Shown here piece after piece: positions 3,451 through 16,554 of a stretch of DNA of 64,000 nucleotides. The notes beneath the pieces are model-generated. The model was not told where the DNA came from. It made no database searches and saw only the letters and a program-made list of their open reading frames with translations. The DNA comes from Aliarcobacter thereius LMG 24486 (GTDB lineage: Bacteria > Campylobacterota > Campylobacteria > Campylobacterales > Arcobacteraceae), in NCBI RefSeq assembly GCF_004214815.1, contig NZ_CP035926.1, positions 1,550,001 to 1,614,000 of the forward strand, given 5' to 3'. Numbering within the stretch: the stretch's first letter is position 1; every line of letters begins with the position of its first letter. The translations under genes and the position numbers were made by a program.

Positions 3451-6438
3451 TTATCTCCTTAAATATTCTAATGTACTATTTATAATATCGTCATCATCAC
3501 GACTTCTTGCTTTTATACTATTTTTTATTCCATCATCTTTTACAAATGTTATATTTGTTTCATAAGAGCTTATTTGATTTATTCCTTTTTCCAAAGCTAA
3601 GATTTTAATCAAAATTAAATCCATAAACTGTTTTGTAGGAATATCAAGTTTTCCAAATCTATCTTCCATCTCTTCTTCTATTTCATAAAGTGTTTCTTTA
3701 CTAGTTGAACGGCTTAATCTTCTATATAGCTCAAGTCTTACTCTATCTTCACTTATATAATCTTCACTAATAAAAGCACTAATAGCAAGTTTAATATCAA
3801 TATTTTTCTCTTTGTTTTTCTCTTCTCCACTTAATATTGCCAAAGTATCTTCAAGCATTTTAAGATACAAACCATAACCAATCTGTTTTATATGTCCACT
3901 TTGTTCAGCACCTATAATATTCCCACCACCTCTTATTTCTAAATCTTGATGTGCAAGTGCTGTTCCACTTCCTAAATATGAATTTGACTCTAAAGCAACC
4001 AACCTTTTTATAGCTTCAGGAGTAATTTTACTTTTATCTTCAACAACATAATAACAATATCCCTCTTTGTTACTTCGTCCAACTCTTCCTCTTAATTGAT
4101 GTAAATCAGCAATTCCAAATCTATCTGCACTCTCAATTATTATTGAATTTGCATTTGGAAGATGTATTCCACTTTCTACAATAGAAGTTGCAAGTAAAAT
4201 ATCAAACTCTTTGTTTTCAAAAGATTCAACAATCTTTTCAGTCTCATTTGCTTTTATTTGAGAGTGAATTATCTCTACTTTTATATTTGGCATAAGTTCA
4301 AGCAGATCTTTTTTCTTTGCTTCAATAGAAGCTATATTGTTATGTACATAAAAAAGCTGTCCACCTCTTCTTTTTTCTCTTAATATTATCTCTTTTATAA
4401 GTCCATCATTGTACTCTTTTACAAAAGTTCGTACACCCAATCTTTCACTTGGAGGTGTAAGTAAACTACTCATTCCTTTTAGTTTTGATAAGGCTAGATT
4501 TAGAGTTCTTGGAATTGGAGTTGCACTCATTGAAAATATATGAACATCTTCTCTAAGTCCTTTTAGTTTCTCTTTTTGTTTTACACCAAACTTATGCTCT
4601 TCATCTACAATTACTAAGGCAAGATTTGAAGTTTTTATATCAAGTAAAGAGTGAGTTCCAATAACAAATTTTACACTTCCATCTTCAAGCCCTTTTTTAA
4701 TACTATTTTTCTCTTTTGTTGTAGTTTTTCCATCAAGTTTATAAACATCTATTCCAAACTCTTTAAATCTTTTGCTTATTGAGTTGTAGTGCTGAGAAGC
4801 AAGTAAAGTTGTAGGGCATACAAAAACAGCTTGGTAACCACTTGAAATAACAGCTAAAAGTGCATTCATAGCAACTTCTGTTTTACCAAAACCAACATCA
4901 CCACTTAAAAGTCTATCCATAACTTTTCCACTACTAATATCAGAAAAAATCTCATTTATACTTCTTGTTTGGTCTTTTGTATATGTAAAACCTGCACTAT
5001 TTTGAAATCTTTTGATTAAAAAATCATCTATAAAAATTTTAATCCCATTTATAAGTTCTCTAGCAGCTGCTAGTTTTATAATATCATTTGCTATTTCAAA
5101 AAGTCTATCTTTTACTTTCTCTTTAAGTTTTGTAAAGCTTCCTCGACCAAGTTTATCAACTATTGCATAACTTTCACCATCGGCTACATATCTATCAATA
5201 GTATCAATATTTTCAACAGGAATTAAAAGTCTATCTTCTCCTTGATAATTTATAATTACAAAATCTCTTTTCGCTCCCATAATTGAAACTGGTTCAATAC
5301 CTTTATAAATACCTATTCCATGCTTTTCATGAACTACAAAATCATTTAAAACAAGCTCATCAACTACTAGTTTTACTCTTTTTTTTCTTCTTCTTTTAAC
5401 TTCTTTATTTAAAGAAATTATAAGTTCATTTTTTCCTAAAATATTTATAATCTCATCACTAAAATGATACTTTATAGATTTATCATCAAGTGCTAAGTCA
5501 AGAGATTTTATTCTAGCTTCACTTGAACTAATCAAAGTAATTTTTTTATCTTTATGAAAAGTTATAAACTCTTTTATATTTGATGGACTTATCTCTTTAT
5601 ACTCTTTACTTGAATAAATTTGTGGAGTTGCTAAAAACTTATCTTTATTTAATCTTTTCTCTTCAAAAATATATGCTTCATCTAGCTCATTTAGAGCTTC
5701 TTGAGTGATAAAGCTGTTCATATTTTGTGGTAAATAATCTGCTAGATTATCTAAATACCAAAATCCTAATGAGTGAATATCCTTTACAAAGGCATCACTT
5801 GAACTAAGTTCTATTTTCTCATTTATATCTTCAAAACCATCTTCACTTAAAGATAAAAAAGCTGGTGTGATTGTGATACTTTCAAGCTCCTCTTTTTGTG
5901 ATTTTTGGTCTTCAATATCAAAGATTCTAATACTTTCAACCTCATCATCAAATAAGCTAACTCTATATCCAAAATCACTTCCAAGCATCGCTATATCAAA
6001 TATATCTCCTCTTAAAGAAACCTCTCCTGCACTTGTAACAATATCTACAAAATAATAACCCCAATTATAAAGCTTTTGCTTAAAACTATTTAAATCTAAT
6101 TTATCTGCAAAATTAATTGTAAAACTATCAAAACACTCTTTTTTTGGCATAGGAAATGAAATTGTTCGTAAAGGAGAGATAAGAATTTTATCCTCTTTTT
6201 TATAGGAATAAAACTCTTGTAAAGCCTTCGTAATATCTTGTATTTCATCACTAAAAGAGTGTAAATCATCTTTGAAATTTGCTCTAAAATCTGATAAAAC
6301 AAAAGGCTTGAAACCTAAAAAAGAGACGATATGTGAAGCTTTTATTGCTTGTGAATCATCATTTACTATTAAAAGTTGGCACTTTTTTAAACTTTTTTCA
6401 TCTTTTAAACTTTTTAAAAATTCATATATATTTTTCAC
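3451..6438 (-). CDS. mfd: Transcription-repair coupling factor Mfd
   Basis: This 995-residue SF2 translocase removes RNA polymerase stalled at DNA lesions and recruits UvrA. The N-terminal third is UvrB-like. The RNA-polymerase interaction domain begins near residue 355 (DFVVHEKHGIGIYKG). Helicase motifs follow: Walker A GDVGFGKT, motif II DEEH, motif III SATPIPRT and motif VI QLRGRVGR. A C-terminal TRCF domain completes it. At about 1000 residues it is slightly shorter than enteric Mfd, as usual in Campylobacterota. The start is GTG at 6438, sharing one base with the stop of the upstream small gene (TAGTG), which implies translational coupling. Confidence 0.97.
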   Translation of the reverse strand: MKNIYEFLKSLKDEKSLKKCQLLIVNDDSQAIKASHIVSFLGFKPFVLSDFRANFKDDLHSFSDEIQDITKALQEFYSYKKEDKILISPLRTISFPMPKKECFDSFTINFADKLDLNSFKQKLYNWGYYFVDIVTSAGEVSLRGDIFDIAMLGSDFGYRVSLFDDEVESIRIFDIEDQKSQKEELESITITPAFLSLSEDGFEDINEKIELSSSDAFVKDIHSLGFWYLDNLADYLPQNMNSFITQEALNELDEAYIFEEKRLNKDKFLATPQIYSSKEYKEISPSNIKEFITFHKDKKITLISSSEARIKSLDLALDDKSIKYHFSDEIINILGKNELIISLNKEVKRRRKKRVKLVVDELVLNDFVVHEKHGIGIYKGIEPVSIMGAKRDFVIINYQGEDRLLIPVENIDTIDRYVADGESYAIVDKLGRGSFTKLKEKVKDRLFEIANDIIKLAAARELINGIKIFIDDFLIKRFQNSAGFTYTKDQTRSINEIFSDISSGKVMDRLLSGDVGFGKTEVAMNALLAVISSGYQAVFVCPTTLLASQHYNSISKRFKEFGIDVYKLDGKTTTKEKNSIKKGLEDGSVKFVIGTHSLLDIKTSNLALVIVDEEHKFGVKQKEKLKGLREDVHIFSMSATPIPRTLNLALSKLKGMSSLLTPPSERLGVRTFVKEYNDGLIKEIILREKRRGGQLFYVHNNIASIEAKKKDLLELMPNIKVEIIHSQIKANETEKIVESFENKEFDILLATSIVESGIHLPNANSIIIESADRFGIADLHQLRGRVGRSNKEGYCYYVVEDKSKITPEAIKRLVALESNSYLGSGTALAHQDLEIRGGGNIIGAEQSGHIKQIGYGLYLKMLEDTLAILSGEEKNKEKNIDIKLAISAFISEDYISEDRVRLELYRRLSRSTSKETLYEIEEEMEDRFGKLDIPTKQFMDLILIKILALEKGINQISSYETNITFVKDDGIKNSIKARSRDDDDIINSTLEYLRR

Positions 6439-7368: not shown

Positions 7369-7402
7369 TATCATTTCTAATACACAGGAGTTAGAAATGA
7401 TA
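7369..7402 (+). promoter_or_regulatory. 12-bp hairpin with ribosome-binding site in the loop and start codon in the stem
   Basis: The arms TATCATTTCTAA (7369-7380) and TTAGAAATGATA (7391-7402) are perfectly complementary. The 10-base loop TACACAGGAG carries the AGGAG Shine-Dalgarno of the acyltransferase gene, and its ATG (7397-7399) lies inside the right arm. In RNA this would place the start codon in a duplex. It could be a cis-acting translational control element (thermosensor-like or protein/sRNA bound) or, as DNA, an operator. Confidence 0.55.
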
Positions 7403-9103
7403 AATATCCAGAAAGAGATTGAAAACAAATTTCCAAAAATAAAAACAAAAGAAAACTTCATAAAAAAATCTATTTTTAAAGTAGCAAAAAAGCTAGTTCA
7501 CGAAGATTCTATAAATAAGTTTTTATCTCAAAACTCTCATTTAAAAGGTTTTGATTTTGTTGATGCTGTATTAGATTATTTTGATTTTGACTATACAGTT
7601 TCAAGCAATGATTTACAAAATATTCCATCTAATGGAAAAGTAGTAATAATATCAAATCATCCTCTTGGTGGACTTGATGCTTTATGTTTATTAAAACTTG
7701 TAGGAAGTGTAAGAAAAGACATAAAGATTGTAGCAAATGATTTTTTAGCAGGTTTTGAAGCACTAAATTCACTTATTATTCCAATAGATAATTTCCAAAA
7801 AAGACAGAGTAAGAATAGTATAAAAAAGATTTATGATTCACTTTTAAATGATGAAGCTCTTATAGTTTTTCCAGCTGGAGAAGTAAGTCGTGCAACACAT
7901 ATTGGAATAAAAGATAAGAATTGGAGCAAAGGTTTTCTAAATTTTGCTAAGAATTCTGGCTCTGCTATTTTGCCTATATTTATAGATGCAAAGAATTCAA
8001 AAACTTTTTATACTATCTCTTTACTAAACAAAACTTTCTCAACTCTTTTATTATCAAATGAGATGTTTAACAAAAAATCAAAACATATAAATATTAAAAT
8101 TGGACAAATTATTCCAAATGAGAATATTATACCAAGAGCTTTGGATAAGAATTTTATTGTAAATCTATATAAAAAACATCTTTATGCTCTAAAAAAAGGG
8201 AAAAAATCATATTTTCAAACTCAATCAGCAATAGCTCATCCAGTAAGTAGGATTGACCTTTTAAATGAATTAAGAAAATCACAAGTTTTAGGTGAAACAA
8301 ATGATGGAAAAATAATATATTTGTATGATTATGTTGAAGATTCTATTGTTTTAAAAGAACTTGGACGCTTAAGAGAGTTATCTTTTAGAAAAGTTGGTGA
8401 AGGTGTAAATAAAAAAAGAGATACAGATAAGTATGATATTTACTACCAACACATAATTTTATATGATAGAAGTGAACTTGAGATAGTTGGTTCATATAGA
8501 ATTGCAAATTCTGAAAAAGTTTTTAAAGAGTTTGGTGTAAAAGGTTTTTACTCAAACTCTCTTTTTGAATTTAATGATGAGTTTTTATTTTATCTTCAAA
8601 ATTCAGCTGAACTTGGAAGATCATTTGTACAACCAAAATATTGGGGAACAAGAGCTTTAGATTATCTTTGGTTTGGAATTGGAGCATATTTAAGAGCAAA
8701 TCCAAATATAAAATATCTTTTTGGTCCAGTTTCTATTTCTGGAACTTTTCCATCTGTTGCAAAAGATTTACTTGTATATTATTACTCTTTCTATTTTAAA
8801 GAAGAAAAAGAGCTTGTAGTTTCAAAAAATAGATACAACTACAAAAATAGTCCAAATGATTTAGCAGAATTTTTTAACTTTGAAAGCAAACAACAAGATT
8901 TTAGAACTTTAAAATCAGCATTAGGAAATATTGGAGTTACAATTCCAACTCTATATAAACAATATGCAGAACTTACAAATGATGAAGGAGTGAAGTTTTT
9001 AGATTTTAATGTGGATAAAGAGTTTAATGATTGTGTAGATGGTTTTATTTTAGTAGAAATAGAAAAAATAAAAGAGCATATAAAACTAAGATATATTTCA
9101 TAG
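7397..9103 (+). CDS. OlsF-like bifunctional acyltransferase (PlsC-type domain fused to GNAT/OlsB-type domain)
   Basis: This 568-residue protein has two acyl-transfer domains. The N-terminal half (about 60-260) is a PlsC/LPLAT domain with the catalytic NHX4D block NHPLGGLD near residue 88 and the glycerol-phosphate-site motif FPAGEVSR. The C-terminal half (about 285-500) resembles the OlsB/hemolysin-like N-acyltransferase family (LGRLRELSFRKVGEG, GSYRIA, ELGRSFVQPKYWG). This order is that of OlsF, which makes ornithine lipids by N-acylation and then O-acylation. A function in aminolipid synthesis at the inner membrane is therefore likely; the head group is not proven. The gene is monocistronic, with its start inside a hairpin (see 7369-7402). 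Confidence 0.75.
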   Translation: MINIQKEIENKFPKIKTKENFIKKSIFKVAKKLVHEDSINKFLSQNSHLKGFDFVDAVLDYFDFDYTVSSNDLQNIPSNGKVVIISNHPLGGLDALCLLKLVGSVRKDIKIVANDFLAGFEALNSLIIPIDNFQKRQSKNSIKKIYDSLLNDEALIVFPAGEVSRATHIGIKDKNWSKGFLNFAKNSGSAILPIFIDAKNSKTFYTISLLNKTFSTLLLSNEMFNKKSKHINIKIGQIIPNENIIPRALDKNFIVNLYKKHLYALKKGKKSYFQTQSAIAHPVSRIDLLNELRKSQVLGETNDGKIIYLYDYVEDSIVLKELGRLRELSFRKVGEGVNKKRDTDKYDIYYQHIILYDRSELEIVGSYRIANSEKVFKEFGVKGFYSNSLFEFNDEFLFYLQNSAELGRSFVQPKYWGTRALDYLWFGIGAYLRANPNIKYLFGPVSISGTFPSVAKDLLVYYYSFYFKEEKELVVSKNRYNYKNSPNDLAEFFNFESKQQDFRTLKSALGNIGVTIPTLYKQYAELTNDEGVKFLDFNVDKEFNDCVDGFILVEIEKIKEHIKLRYIS

Positions 9104-10293: not shown

Positions 10294-12420
10294 TTACTTA
10301 TAATGCATCTGCTTATAACCTTCTACTCTTTTTTTATAGCTTGAGTTTAACATAGCATTCTTACTATCTAAAAAGTCTATTGCAAGGCATTCTTGATTTC
10401 CTCTTCCAATTCTTCCTAAATATTGAATCAATCTTCCATAATACGAAATTGGAGTTGCAAATAATATTGTATTTAAATGAGGAAAATCTATTCCTTCTCC
10501 AAAAAAAGAGCTTGTTGCAAGAATTAAAGAGCTTGATTTAACTTTTTGCATATTTTCTACTTGCTCTTTTTTATTTTGACTTCCATGTACTGAAACAAAC
10601 TCTAGTTGTTCTTCTTCTAAAAACTTCTCCAAAATATTTATATGTTCAATTCTATCACTTAAAAGAAGTATCTTCCTATCCTTATTCTCTTTTATTGCAC
10701 TAATTATCTCTTTATTTCTATCTTCATCTAAAATTAGTTCATTTACTATTGAAGCATAATTATCAAGATTTGATGTGAAATTTGTTCTTACAATTTTTAA
10801 TCTATTCGTATGAGTTCTTGGCTTTTTATACTCATAAGATATTTGCCCTAATTGCTGATATAAAATTGGGTCTAATTCATCTTTTCTATTTGGAGTTGCA
10901 CTAAGTCCTAAAATATATCTTCCTTTAAAATTTTTAATAATCTGTTCAAAAGTAAGTGCTGGAATATGATGACATTCATCAACTATAACTTGTGTATAGT
11001 TTTCTATAAGTTCGCTATTATTATTTAAACTTTGCATAGTAGCCACATCTAAATTTGTATTTAATTTGTTTTGTCCTTTTCCTAAATATCCAATATCTTT
11101 TTTTGAATATCCAAAATAATCTACAAATCTACTAATCCATTGTTCTAAAAGCATATTTTTATTTACTATTATAAGAGTTTTTACAGCTCTTTGCTCAAAT
11201 ATTTTTGCACCAATTAATGTTTTACCAAATCCTGGTGGTGCTACACAAATTGATGAATCATATTTTAAAATCTCTCTTATAGCATCATCTTGCTCCGGTC
11301 TTAAAGTGTATAAAAGCTCTTTTACTTCTATTTTATTAAATACTCTTTTATCATCTATTTTAAAATCCAAAGCATTTTCATTGAAATACTCTATTAAATT
11401 CTCTTTTAATCCTCTTGGCAAAGTTATGAAATTTGCACTCTCTTCATATCCTTTTAAATATTTTGGAGTATTATAAAGTGGTTTTCTAAGATTTGTTAAA
11501 AGTTTTATTTGTGGATTTAAAAATGTTGCAAAAGATTTTAATTTTGATATAAAACTTTTTGAAAAGTTTGTTATATTAAATTTAATTCCACTTTCAAGCT
11601 CAATTTGGAATTCATTTATAGGAAATTCTATACTTTTTAAACTTTTCTCAACATTTCTTGTACTTATAACTTCTGCAAAACTATAAACAACTTGTTTTGG
11701 TACTTTTTTTATATTTATTAGATATTTCCATTGATCTTCGTATGTTTTTTTCGTATCAATATCAAAAAAAACTGTACGATTTTTATTTCTATATAAAAGT
11801 TGTAAAGGAAGTTCTATATAAGAACCTAATCTTTCATTTGAAGAGAACTCACTATTTGGATATATTTTTGCACTAATATTTGCTTTTTTTTGTAAAAAGT
11901 ATAAAAAGCTATAAGATATTTTTGAATTAATTTTCTCTTCAAAAAAAATCCAAGCAAAAATTGAATTATATGAACTTAAACTATATTGTGCCTCAATATT
12001 TAACTCTTTTAAAGCTCTTTGCAATTTGAATATTTCTTCGCTATTAAGTTCAAGAACAACATAAGAACACTCTTGATTTTTATTTATTAAATAAGAAGCT
12101 AAAAAAATATTCCCTCTTAAGTGTTCTTCTAGTTCTTTATTTGTAAGTGGAAGATAATCTTCTCCCATAAAAGTTGTACTTACTGGACTAAATCCAGCTC
12201 GTTTATTGTCTTTGCTTTTCCATCTTTTTAAATAGATATTTTCTCTTGCTACAAAAAGCTCTCTAAATAGTTCTATTCTCTCATTTTTTGATAATTTTCT
12301 TTCTACTATATTTTGATTATCTTTTAAACTCTTTTCAAGTTCTTCTATTCTTGCTTCAACTCTTTCTTTTTCTAAATATAGCTCTTTTAACTCTTGTTCA
12401 ATCTTAATATTTTGCTTCAT
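10294..12420 (-). CDS. TOTE-type primase-helicase: degenerate archaeo-eukaryotic primase domain fused to SF2 DEAD/DEAH helicase
   Basis: This protein has about 708 residues: a short N-terminal coiled coil (about 1-45), a region aligning by eye with the AEP primase of TOTE-type proteins (about 48-255), a linker, and an SF2 helicase (about 370-700). Conserved AEP-family blocks are IELFRELFVARENIYLKRW, AWIFFEE, GSYIELPLQ and YEDQWKYL. The two catalytic blocks are changed: the metal-binding DFD position reads ELN and the H-x-W position reads FAW, so primer synthesis is unlikely. The helicase is intact: APPGFGKT, DECHHIP, GLSATP and QYLGRIGR. The ATG at 12420 overlaps the end of folC by 17 bp (a TTG at 12426 is also in frame). 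Its role is probably DNA repair or defence; not established. Confidence 0.75.
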   Translation of the reverse strand: MKQNIKIEQELKELYLEKERVEARIEELEKSLKDNQNIVERKLSKNERIELFRELFVARENIYLKRWKSKDNKRAGFSPVSTTFMGEDYLPLTNKELEEHLRGNIFLASYLINKNQECSYVVLELNSEEIFKLQRALKELNIEAQYSLSSYNSIFAWIFFEEKINSKISYSFLYFLQKKANISAKIYPNSEFSSNERLGSYIELPLQLLYRNKNRTVFFDIDTKKTYEDQWKYLINIKKVPKQVVYSFAEVISTRNVEKSLKSIEFPINEFQIELESGIKFNITNFSKSFISKLKSFATFLNPQIKLLTNLRKPLYNTPKYLKGYEESANFITLPRGLKENLIEYFNENALDFKIDDKRVFNKIEVKELLYTLRPEQDDAIREILKYDSSICVAPPGFGKTLIGAKIFEQRAVKTLIIVNKNMLLEQWISRFVDYFGYSKKDIGYLGKGQNKLNTNLDVATMQSLNNNSELIENYTQVIVDECHHIPALTFEQIIKNFKGRYILGLSATPNRKDELDPILYQQLGQISYEYKKPRTHTNRLKIVRTNFTSNLDNYASIVNELILDEDRNKEIISAIKENKDRKILLLSDRIEHINILEKFLEEEQLEFVSVHGSQNKKEQVENMQKVKSSSLILATSSFFGEGIDFPHLNTILFATPISYYGRLIQYLGRIGRGNQECLAIDFLDSKNAMLNSSYKKRVEGYKQMHYK

Positions 12421-13567
12421 AATCAACTATATCCAGAAATTTTTCAACAACTAGAAAAGAGCCAAATACTAAATACTCTTTTGTTTTTTCCAAAGATATT
12501 TTTTCTATCTCTTTTATTTTAAGTTCTTTTATACACTTTTGTAAAATATCTTTTTTTACAACTCTTTTATCTTTTAAATCCAAAATAAAAAGTTCATCAA
12601 TAATAGGTTTTAAAATAGTTAAAACCTCTTTAAAATCTTTATCTGCATATGAATTATAAATCAAAGTCAACTTTTTATCTTTAAACTCATTTAATATAAC
12701 TTTTGCTGCAAGTGGATTATGTCCAACATCAATAGTAATATTTGACACAATTTTTTGACATCTTCCAAAAAGTGGAGTTTTATTAAAAATTTCAAAATCA
12801 ATATCAACTTTTAGCTCTTCTAATGCTCTTAAAACTAAAGATAGATTTCTTTTTAAATATGTAGCAAAAGAAAATTCATAATCTATATTAAAATCTTCAA
12901 CTTTCAAAATCTCTATATCTTTATTAAATTCTTCTTTTAACTCTTTTTTTACTATTTTTGCAACTTCAAAAACTTCATTAAACTCTTGATAACCGATTAT
13001 CATCTTTGTATCAACCGAACGAATTTTTGTTTTTGCAATCTCTTCTATGGTATTACCCAAAAATGCAGTGTGGTCAACTCCTATTGTTGTAATTAAACTT
13101 AAATCATTTTTTACAGAGTTTGTAGCATCAAACTCTCCACCTAATCCTGCTTCAAGAACCAAATAATCACAATCTTTACTAATGTAATATGCCAAAAGTG
13201 TTGTATATTCAAAATAAGTAAGCTTTTCTAGAAGTTCTAAAGAGTAAATATTTTGTAGAAATTTGTGTGCATTATTTAGCTCTTCATCATTTATATCAGA
13301 TCCATTTAACCAAATTCTTTCATTGAATTTTTTTATATGTGGAGAGCTATAATGAAGAGTTTTAAAACCTTTTTTATATAAATAATAGGCTAAAAATCTT
13401 CCTGTACTCCCTTTACCATTTGTTCCAACAATATGAATTGTAAAAGGAGTTTTTATATGAATTAGAAGCTCTTTTGAAGCTTTTTCTATATAGCTATAAT
13501 CTATTTTATCATAGTACATAGTTTTATGTTCTAAAAACTCTTTTAAACTTATCTCTTTTAAATTCAT
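12404..13567 (-). CDS. folC: Bifunctional dihydrofolate/folylpolyglutamate synthase
   Basis: This 387-residue Mur-ligase-like ATP-dependent enzyme adds glutamate to dihydropteroate and folates in the cytosol. It shows the P-loop GTNGKGSTGRFLAYY, the substrate loop HYSSPHIKKFNERI, the AGLGGEFDATN block and the C-terminal HNPLAAK motif. It is slightly shorter than the E. coli enzyme (about 420) but keeps all core motifs. It sits 3 bp after the lptE-like gene and overlaps the helicase gene. The order leuS-lptE-folC is conserved in Campylobacter. Confidence 0.93.
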   Translation of the reverse strand: MNLKEISLKEFLEHKTMYYDKIDYSYIEKASKELLIHIKTPFTIHIVGTNGKGSTGRFLAYYLYKKGFKTLHYSSPHIKKFNERIWLNGSDINDEELNNAHKFLQNIYSLELLEKLTYFEYTTLLAYYISKDCDYLVLEAGLGGEFDATNSVKNDLSLITTIGVDHTAFLGNTIEEIAKTKIRSVDTKMIIGYQEFNEVFEVAKIVKKELKEEFNKDIEILKVEDFNIDYEFSFATYLKRNLSLVLRALEELKVDIDFEIFNKTPLFGRCQKIVSNITIDVGHNPLAAKVILNEFKDKKLTLIYNSYADKDFKEVLTILKPIIDELFILDLKDKRVVKKDILQKCIKELKIKEIEKISLEKTKEYLVFGSFLVVEKFLDIVDYEAKY

Positions 13568-14082: not shown

Positions 14083-16554
14083 TTAACCTTTAATTACTAT
14101 ATTTACAAGTTTATTTGGCACAACAATTTCTTTAATTATTGTTGCATTTTCTAGCCATTTTTCTGATGATTTTTTAGCTAATTTTAAAATCTCTTCATTT
14201 GAAGCATCTTTTGAAACTTCAATTTCAGATCTTTTTTTACCATTTATTGTAACAGCTAAAACTATACTATCTTGTTCAAATACTTCATTCTTAATCTCTA
14301 TAGTTTTTTCAAAATTCTCTAAATCAAAAAATTCATTTGCTAATTCCCAAGATGTATGTGGAATGATTGGCTCTAAAATATTTGTTAATATATAATAAGC
14401 TTCTGCCCAAATAGCTTCATTTTTTTGTACTTGTAATGAGTTTAAAGCTTCCATACAAGATGCTATTAAAGTATTAAAAGCATAAGTTTTTGTTAAAACT
14501 TCATTTGATTTAACTAAAGCTTCATATACTTTTTTTCTAGCTTCTTTTTCTTCTTTGTTTAATACTTTTTGATCAATATTTTTAAATGATTTTAATCCAT
14601 TTGGAGTAATATTTGAAGCTCTTTCATAAAATCTTTTTATAAATTTATAAGCTCCTTCAACTGCACTATCATTCCACTCAAGCTCTTTTGTTGGTGGTGC
14701 TGCAAAAAGAATAAATAATCTTGCTGTATCTGCTCCATATTTTTGAATAATTAAATCAGGATCTACAACATTTCCTTTAGATTTACTCATTTTTGCACCA
14801 TCTTTTAAAACCATTCCTTGAGTTAAAAGGTTTTTAAATGGCTCACTAGAATTTGTATATCCTAAATCTTTAAGTACTTTTGTAAAAAATCTTGCATATA
14901 AAAGGTGTAAAATGGCATGTTCAATTCCACCAATATATTGGTCAACATCCATCCAATAATTGCTATCTTCAAGATTTATAGCTTCATTATTCCATTTTTT
15001 GAAATTTGTTGCATATCTTAAAAAATACCAAGATGATTGAACAAAAGTATCTAAAGTATCAGTTTCTCTTCTTGCATCTTTCCCACATTTTGGACAAGCA
15101 CATTTTTTCCATGTTGGATGTTTTTCAAGAGGATTACCTTCTCCTGTGATTTCAACATCATCTGGAAGTGCAATTGGAAGATTTTCTATTTTTTCAGGTA
15201 CAAGTCCACAAGAATCACAATGCACAAAAGGAATAGGAGCACCCCAATATCTCTGTCTTGAAACTCCCCAATCTCTTAATTTAAAGTTTACTTTTTTTGT
15301 TCCTATTGAATTTTGTTCAAAGTGATAAATTATTGCTTCTTTAGCTTGAGCTGTTGTTAATCCACTAAATCCTTCACAATCAACTAAAATACCATCTTCT
15401 GTGAAAGCCTCTTTTAATCTACTTGAAAGAGCTTCATCTTTATTCTTTACAATAACTTGTTTAATAGGTAAATCATAATTTTGAGCAAATTCAAAATCTC
15501 TTTGATCATGTGCAGGTACACTCATAACAGCACCTCCACCATAAGATTTTAATACAAAATTAGCTGTCCAAACTGGAAGTTTTTGCCCTGTTAATGGATG
15601 AATAACCTCTATTTCTAAATCAACTCCCTCTTTTTCCAAACTAGCTCTATCTTTTTCAGCAACTTTTTGAATATTTTTTATAGCATTTAATTTATTTTTT
15701 GGTAAAAGTCCATTATCTACTATATATTTTACAATATCGTGTTCAGGTGCAATAGCAACATAAGTTACTCCATAAATTGTATCAGGTCTTGTTGTAAATA
15801 CTTCAAAACTTGAAAACATTTTATCTAGCTTTGCTCTTGTCTCTTTTGTAACTTCAAATTTAAATTCTAGCCCTTCACTTCTTCCTATCCAATTTTCTTG
15901 CATAGTTAAAACTTGTGATGGCCAAGAGTTTTCTAATGTTTTTAAATCATCAAGAAGTTTTTGTGCATATTTTGTAATAGCAATATAATATCCTGGCATC
16001 TCTTTTTGAACAACTTCATTGCTACATCTCCAGCAACAACCATCTTCAACTTGCTCATTTGCTAAAACTGTTGCACAATCATTACACCAATTCAAACTTG
16101 CACTTTTTTGGTAAACAATTCCAGCTTCATACATTTTAATAAAAATTTCTTGTTCAAACTTTGTGTATAGTTCATCACTTGTTGCAAACTCTTGCTTCTC
16201 ACAAAATGATAATCCTAAACTTCTAAGTTCTTCTTTCATATAAGCAATATTTTCATAAGTCCATTTTTTTGGATGAAGTTTATTTTGTATAGCAGCATTT
16301 TCAGCTGGCATTCCAAAACTATCCCATCCTATTGGATGAAGAACATTAAATCCATTTTTTCTAAAGTGTCTTGCAAAAGCATCTCCAATACAATAATTTC
16401 TTACATGCCCCATATGTATTCTTCCACTTGGATATGGGAACATACTTAAAATATATTTTTTTGGTAATTTATAATCTTCTTTTACTTCAAAAGATCCATT
16501 CTCTTGCCAAAAATTTTGCCATTTTTTCTCAACAATCTTACTTGCGTATTGCAT
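14083..16554 (-). CDS. leuS: Leucyl-tRNA synthetase
   Basis: This 823-residue class I aminoacyl-tRNA synthetase has the HIGH signature as HMGH in [16 protein letters not shown], the CP1 editing domain ([23 protein letters not shown]), Zn-binding Cys clusters (CNDC and CWRC; CPKCGKD), and [10 protein letters not shown] as the KMSKS loop. The C-terminal anticodon-binding and tRNA-elbow region is complete. The ATG at 16554 overlaps the stop of the upstream gene (TAATG), so it is co-translated with that small membrane protein. All catalytic and editing landmarks are intact. Confidence 0.98.

Follow-up and report, generated by a model that had tools for sequence, protein, structure and literature searches.

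A probably domesticated AEP-TOTE primase-helicase with a degenerate primase domain in the leuS-lptE-folC block of Arcobacteraceae

Why should a gene of the AEP-TOTE family (PF22548), of which mobile or conflict loci are a feature, lie in a housekeeping block of Aliarcobacter thereius LMG 24486, and can its primase domain still work? We addressed these questions in a window of 64,000 nucleotides (contig NZ_CP035926.1, positions 1,550,001 to 1,614,000), and all positions below refer to this whole stretch. A check of the open reading frames confirmed a real gene on the minus strand, with its ATG at 12420 and its stop at 10294. The protein combines a coiled coil, an AEP-TOTE primase domain, and an XPB/UvsW-like SF2 helicase (Table 1). 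A sequence-only reading had described an AEP of the TOTE type joined to an SF2 helicase with all its motifs, and both profile search and structure prediction agreed with it. The PF22548 match (151 bits against a curated cut-off of 27) covers positions 1 to 228 of the 230 in the profile and is thus not due to chance. An AlphaFold model of residues 36 to 275 (mean pLDDT, 72.7) was searched with Foldseek. The closest solved fold was that of the CRISPR-associated Prim-Pol of Marinitoga (MpCAPP), followed by other AEPs, and a profile built from 18 orthologs also retrieved MpCAPP by sequence (E = 2.8e−16). The PrimPol models of PADLOC match the protein as well.

Table 1. Features of the pseudo-primase helicase gene and its neighbors (window positions)
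Feature	Position	Strand	Basis or remark
Whole gene, pseudo-primase/SF2 helicase, 708 aa	10294..12420 (including stop codon)	-	ORF and profile matches
N-terminal coiled-coil helix, residues 2-36, also in AEP-less orthologs	12313..12417	-	AlphaFold helix 2-36
AEP-TOTE (primase-like) domain, residues 47-246, catalytically degenerate	11683..12282	-	PF22548, 5.1e-44; Foldseek, CAPP Prim-Pol 7nqe, E 8.5e-12
Motif I position, E124-L125-N126 (D-L/F-D in triad-bearing relatives)	12043..12051	-	alignment
Motif II position, F155 (His, SKSGNGIH, in triad-bearing relatives)	11956..11958	-	alignment
KIYPN, residues 185-189, equivalent to SYDRMFPNQD of triad-bearing relatives; acidic YD step gone	11854..11868	-	alignment
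Linker domain, residues 272-365 (NPQ...PRG)	11326..11607	-	inside phrog_16 match
Helicase domain 1 (ResIII), residues 371-512, motifs I-III intact	10885..11310	-	PF04851, 7.1e-27
Helicase domain 2 (Helicase_C), residues 570-674, motifs IV-VI intact	10399..10713	-	PF00271, 1e-14
folC, overlapping upstream neighbor	12404..13567	-	near gene in orthologous loci examined
leuS, first large gene of conserved block leuS-lptE-folC	14083..16554	-	ORF list and orthologous loci

The helicase half retains all the motifs from I to VI: PPGFGKT (residues 395 to 401), DECHH (481 to 485), and LSATP (506 to 510) in its first part, and LLSDRIEH (586 to 593), SFFGEGIDFP (638 to 647), and QYLGRIGR (666 to 673) in the second. 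Among the best structural matches of the full-length model were archaeal XPB (XPBII, E = 2.4e−22) and UvsW of phage T4 (2oca, E = 5.8e−19), with modest TM-scores and high rmsd because a multidomain model was compared as one rigid body. Phage helicases of phrog_16 match residues 282 to 695, and sequence matches include helicases like D10 of phage T5, at an identity of only about 26%. The protein misses the NCBIfam equivalog cut-offs for XPB (58 versus 610 bits) and RadD (64 versus 720 bits). XPB, UvsW, and D10 have no AEP domain, in contrast to the window protein.

The AEP domain lacks the catalytic triad of its family. The alignment comprised 50 orthologs from the leuS-lptE-folC locus, among them the window protein, and 16 relatives that are mobile or plasmid-borne. 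The D-x-D motif is present in 16/16 relatives and in none of the orthologs, where column 124 reads E in 41 proteins, K in 4, S in 2, C in 2, and Q in 1, instead of the D of all the relatives. Aspartate at column 126 and histidine at column 155 are each found in only 2 orthologs, against 16/16 relatives. The core orthologs have also lost the glycine-rich SKSGNG segment, as well as the acidic YD step of motif III, before FPNQD. The earlier observation that DFD reads ELN and the catalytic His reads Phe was therefore extended from E124, N126, and F155 of the window protein to the orthologs, intact triads being found only in mobile paralogs. Misaligned motifs were ruled out, since the D, D, and H of all 16 relatives fall in the same columns, which shows that the alignment is sound. 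MpCAPP is an active polymerase that needs D177 and D179, and mutation of both abolishes its activity (PMC8211822); in the window protein these positions are occupied by E and N, and a helicase is present in addition. Together with the loss of the triad, SKSGNG, and the YD step, this makes it very likely, as far as sequence can tell, that the domain is catalytically dead and should not synthesize primers. Weak binding of metal or nucleotide is possible, because residue 124 is acidic in 41 of the 50 orthologs. The same residue, with another acidic one such as that at position 129 (Asp or Glu in 46/50 core and 16/16 mobile proteins), could in principle sustain a noncanonical polymerase or nucleotidyltransferase activity, the more so as motif II varies among AEP families (PMC5862659). 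We consider this very improbable given that the second Asp and the His are each lost in 48 of 50 orthologs, along with SKSGNG and the acidic step of motif III, and that CAPP is inactive once both aspartates are mutated.

A degenerate domain might simply be decaying and functionless, with the helicase alone mattering, and the fate of the AEP domain in some genera would agree with this. In genus g20 the protein has about 650 aa and its AEP match drops to 42 bits, indicating an eroded domain. The orthologs of three other genera (g7, g8, and g12) have only 466 to 478 aa: about 230 residues are gone (L202 to L212), and the coiled coil, which is kept, leads directly into the linker, the first part retained after the deletion, and the helicase. 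The AEP-less gene is still at the folC locus in g12 and g8 (L202 and L221), and it lies elsewhere, after a GTPase gene reading like der, in the g7 loci examined. Nesting of these proteins inside the AEP-bearing core clade was favored, but not decisively (AU test, P = 0.27), and g20 grouped with the AEP-less clade in one tree (support, 91/97) and outside it in another. Whatever the nesting, domain loss is the simplest reading, given that AEP and helicase are joined in the mobile outgroup as well as in the core copies. Against mere decay, dN/dS values in close ortholog pairs were about as low in the AEP part (about 0.02 to 0.15) as in the helicase part (about 0.01 to 0.14) in most cases, nearly every genome has an open reading frame here, and 46 diverse orthologs share 31 almost invariant AEP residues. 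Decay without function is thus quite unlikely, and the low dN/dS values show that the presumably dead domain is maintained by purifying selection. A pseudogene or a chance match was ruled out by the profile score, this selection, and the conservation. One core orthologous copy (L071, G059:C9:15140-15739) carries a single in-frame TAG, which is either an assembly error or a recent inactivation. As the AEP-less orthologs demonstrate, the core function can do without the accessory domain. Since these orthologs keep the coiled coil, linker, and helicase, the helicase would be the conserved function; the pseudo-primase, of which one genus has an eroded form and three have none, would be an accessory and not the protein's core.

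The locus itself looks like a housekeeping one. The gene had been placed in the leuS-lptE-folC core block, overlapping folC, and its start (counted from the ATG) does overlap the end of folC by 17 nucleotides, both genes being on the minus strand. In the orthologous loci fetched, the helicase gene was downstream of folC, either directly or after other genes. The block was thus confirmed as the fixed setting, but the direct overlap is typical only of the genus of the window and of a small number of others. In the majority of the remaining genera, folC is separated from the helicase by an M23 peptidase (PF01551) and, in the loci checked for it, by a bactofilin. A promoter scan around the gene found sites no more numerous than in shuffled sequences. 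On the plus strand of the window (7397 to 9103), an acyltransferase is fused to a GNAT-type acetyltransferase domain (PF19576 and PF13444), and such a gene lies near the helicase locus in many relatives too.

The AEP domain was matched in 78 of the 104 Arcobacteraceae genomes, and the helicase is present in about 92, i.e., these 78, one more (G100), and 13 with AEP-less orthologs. The remaining 12, of which 4 are below 90% complete, lack the gene; absences include genera g5 and g6 and the genomes G034 and G070, so that the gene is not universally essential. No core-type copies were found outside the family in our samples of the order and the phylum, where matches were of the mobile type or DUF1882. 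In phylogenetic trees, core orthologs and AEP-less proteins formed one clade relative to the mobile relatives (support, 98 to 100). Pairwise protein distances follow those of leuS (Spearman coefficient, 0.87; 36 genomes), and we make no use of the P value because the pairs are not independent. A fixed locus, a single clade, and distances tracking leuS fit vertical inheritance after one capture.

Triad-bearing relatives have a very different setting, and we judged the usual context of TOTE proteins from these loci themselves. They are found on plasmids and islands, and four genomes of the genus of the window carry both core and mobile copies. One mobile relative, from the Aliarcobacter cibarius plasmid pACIB (WP_151029588.1), has the same architecture as the window protein and about 41% identity over 94% of its length; mobile proteins keep D-x-D and His, whereas in the window protein, which is encoded in a core gene block, the triad is gone. 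Several paralogs (L121, L122, L124, L128, L129, and L225) adjoin AbiEii/AbiEi-like toxin-antitoxin genes, with which they possibly form one functional module; others lie near a methylase, integrases, or transposases. A plasmid copy split by internal stops into two ORFs of 431 and 299 aa (L123, G012:C2:92984-95139), also found on the Aliarcobacter faecis plasmid NZ_CP053838.1, is apparently a decaying mobile copy. Peptide patterns from P0001 and a mobile homolog retrieved no relatives among viral contigs, and the literature searched, with partial coverage, contained no paper treating TOTE, primase, and conflict together. These neighborhoods and the PADLOC matches raise the alternative of a chromosomally fixed antiphage helicase that retained the conflict role of its mobile relatives. 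We regard it as unlikely, because the gene has a fixed place among housekeeping genes, is inherited vertically, and is under strong purifying selection, and because no defense partners lie at the core loci examined. Domestication from the mobile or conflict AEP-TOTE family, as the sequence-only reading had proposed, is instead supported by the locus, the single clade, the leuS-like distances, and a triad-bearing plasmid paralog next to an AbiE gene pair.

Capture from a plasmid or island followed by vertical inheritance, with an intact motor and a dead accessory AEP domain, is in our opinion the probable explanation of the whole. A primase-helicase borne by such an element would have reached the chromosome of an early member of the Arcobacteraceae, taken a place downstream of folC, and become a vertically inherited SF2 DNA helicase or translocase of the XPB/UvsW (T5 D10) type. 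The motor has stayed intact and would be the conserved function, while the AEP domain has lost D-x-D, the nucleotide-binding His, and the acidic step of motif III, and very likely primer synthesis with them. Selection would then have kept it as a noncatalytic accessory, probably aiding the loading or targeting of the motor to nucleic acid that is branched, primed, or hybrid, as in animal Twinkle; where dispensable, it would have been eroded (g20) or deleted (g7, g8, and g12). An AEP domain acting as a nucleic acid-binding module is plausible. Being AEP-TOTE by descent and fold, and lacking the catalytic and mobile-locus features of that family, the protein is better named a pseudo-primase helicase of AEP-TOTE origin than a primase.

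The animal mitochondrial Twinkle protein offers a parallel, since it also joins a helicase to a primase domain without an active site, and this dead domain matters for loading (PMC9723800). In plant Twinkle, the primase is still active. The resemblance is not homology: in Twinkle, a TOPRIM-type primase is joined to a ring helicase of SF4, and in the window protein an AEP domain to an SF2 motor. The locus may thus represent a bacterial counterpart, in which a chromosome captured a mobile primase-helicase, the primase was inactivated, and the helicase was kept. The putative stages (triad-bearing mobile, dead, eroded, and deleted) are visible in living genera, and natural versions with and without the dead domain make its role testable by comparison. 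We found no description of such a catalytically dead AEP-helicase in the literature searched; with partial coverage, this speaks only weakly for novelty. New here are the orthologs of three genera that keep coiled coil, linker, and helicase without the AEP domain and the eroded domain of a fourth.

What might the motor do? The genome encodes DnaG, and the AEP domain is therefore not needed for priming. In this one-contig genome (G000), no locus reaches the cut-off of the RecG profile (TIGR00643). The profile finds only the Mfd motor (the best match, at window 3451 to 6438), a PriA-like protein, and other helicases; the window helicase is not among these matches. The gene recG is present in Helicobacter pylori, of the same order (PMC3325230). 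The part read of a helicase-less relative (G038), about 640 kb out of some 1.3 Mb, yielded neither RecG nor Mfd, so that the RecG link comes from a single genome. Migration of branched DNA is carried out by D10 and UvsW, D10 being a branch-migration protein (PMC5180179). Given the XPB/UvsW fold, the D10-like match, and the lack of a detectable RecG, we prefer by analogy a UvsW/RecG-like role in branch migration at forks or R-loops, in which the helicase possibly replaces RecG. These results point to a possible unrecognized helicase of DNA repair or fork remodeling, in a family of which the member sequenced here shows no RecG.

Foldseek searches with the AEP model also found another atypical AEP of Campylobacterales, HP0184/DUF1882 (2ATZ), whose AEP nature was already noted (PMC8065100). 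Unlike the window protein, it stands alone (180 aa) and by eye keeps the first Asp and a His. It matches the AEP-TOTE profile above the cut-off in some species (e.g., L132:7656-8198) and occurs in 213 of the 299 Campylobacterales genomes sampled but in 0 of the 104 Arcobacteraceae genomes. Its absence and the presence of the core helicase may be one event each on the same branch. A broader proposal seems doubtful to us: in Arcobacteraceae, the captured plasmid primase-helicase would have replaced RecG as the motor of branch migration at forks or R-loops, its dead AEP domain would sense ends that are primed or hybrid, and the protein would in addition take the place of DUF1882/HP0184. Elsewhere in the A. 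thereius genome (L231, G000:C1, about position 1791096), a 536-aa SF2 helicase reads by eye like an RNA helicase of the Suv3 type.
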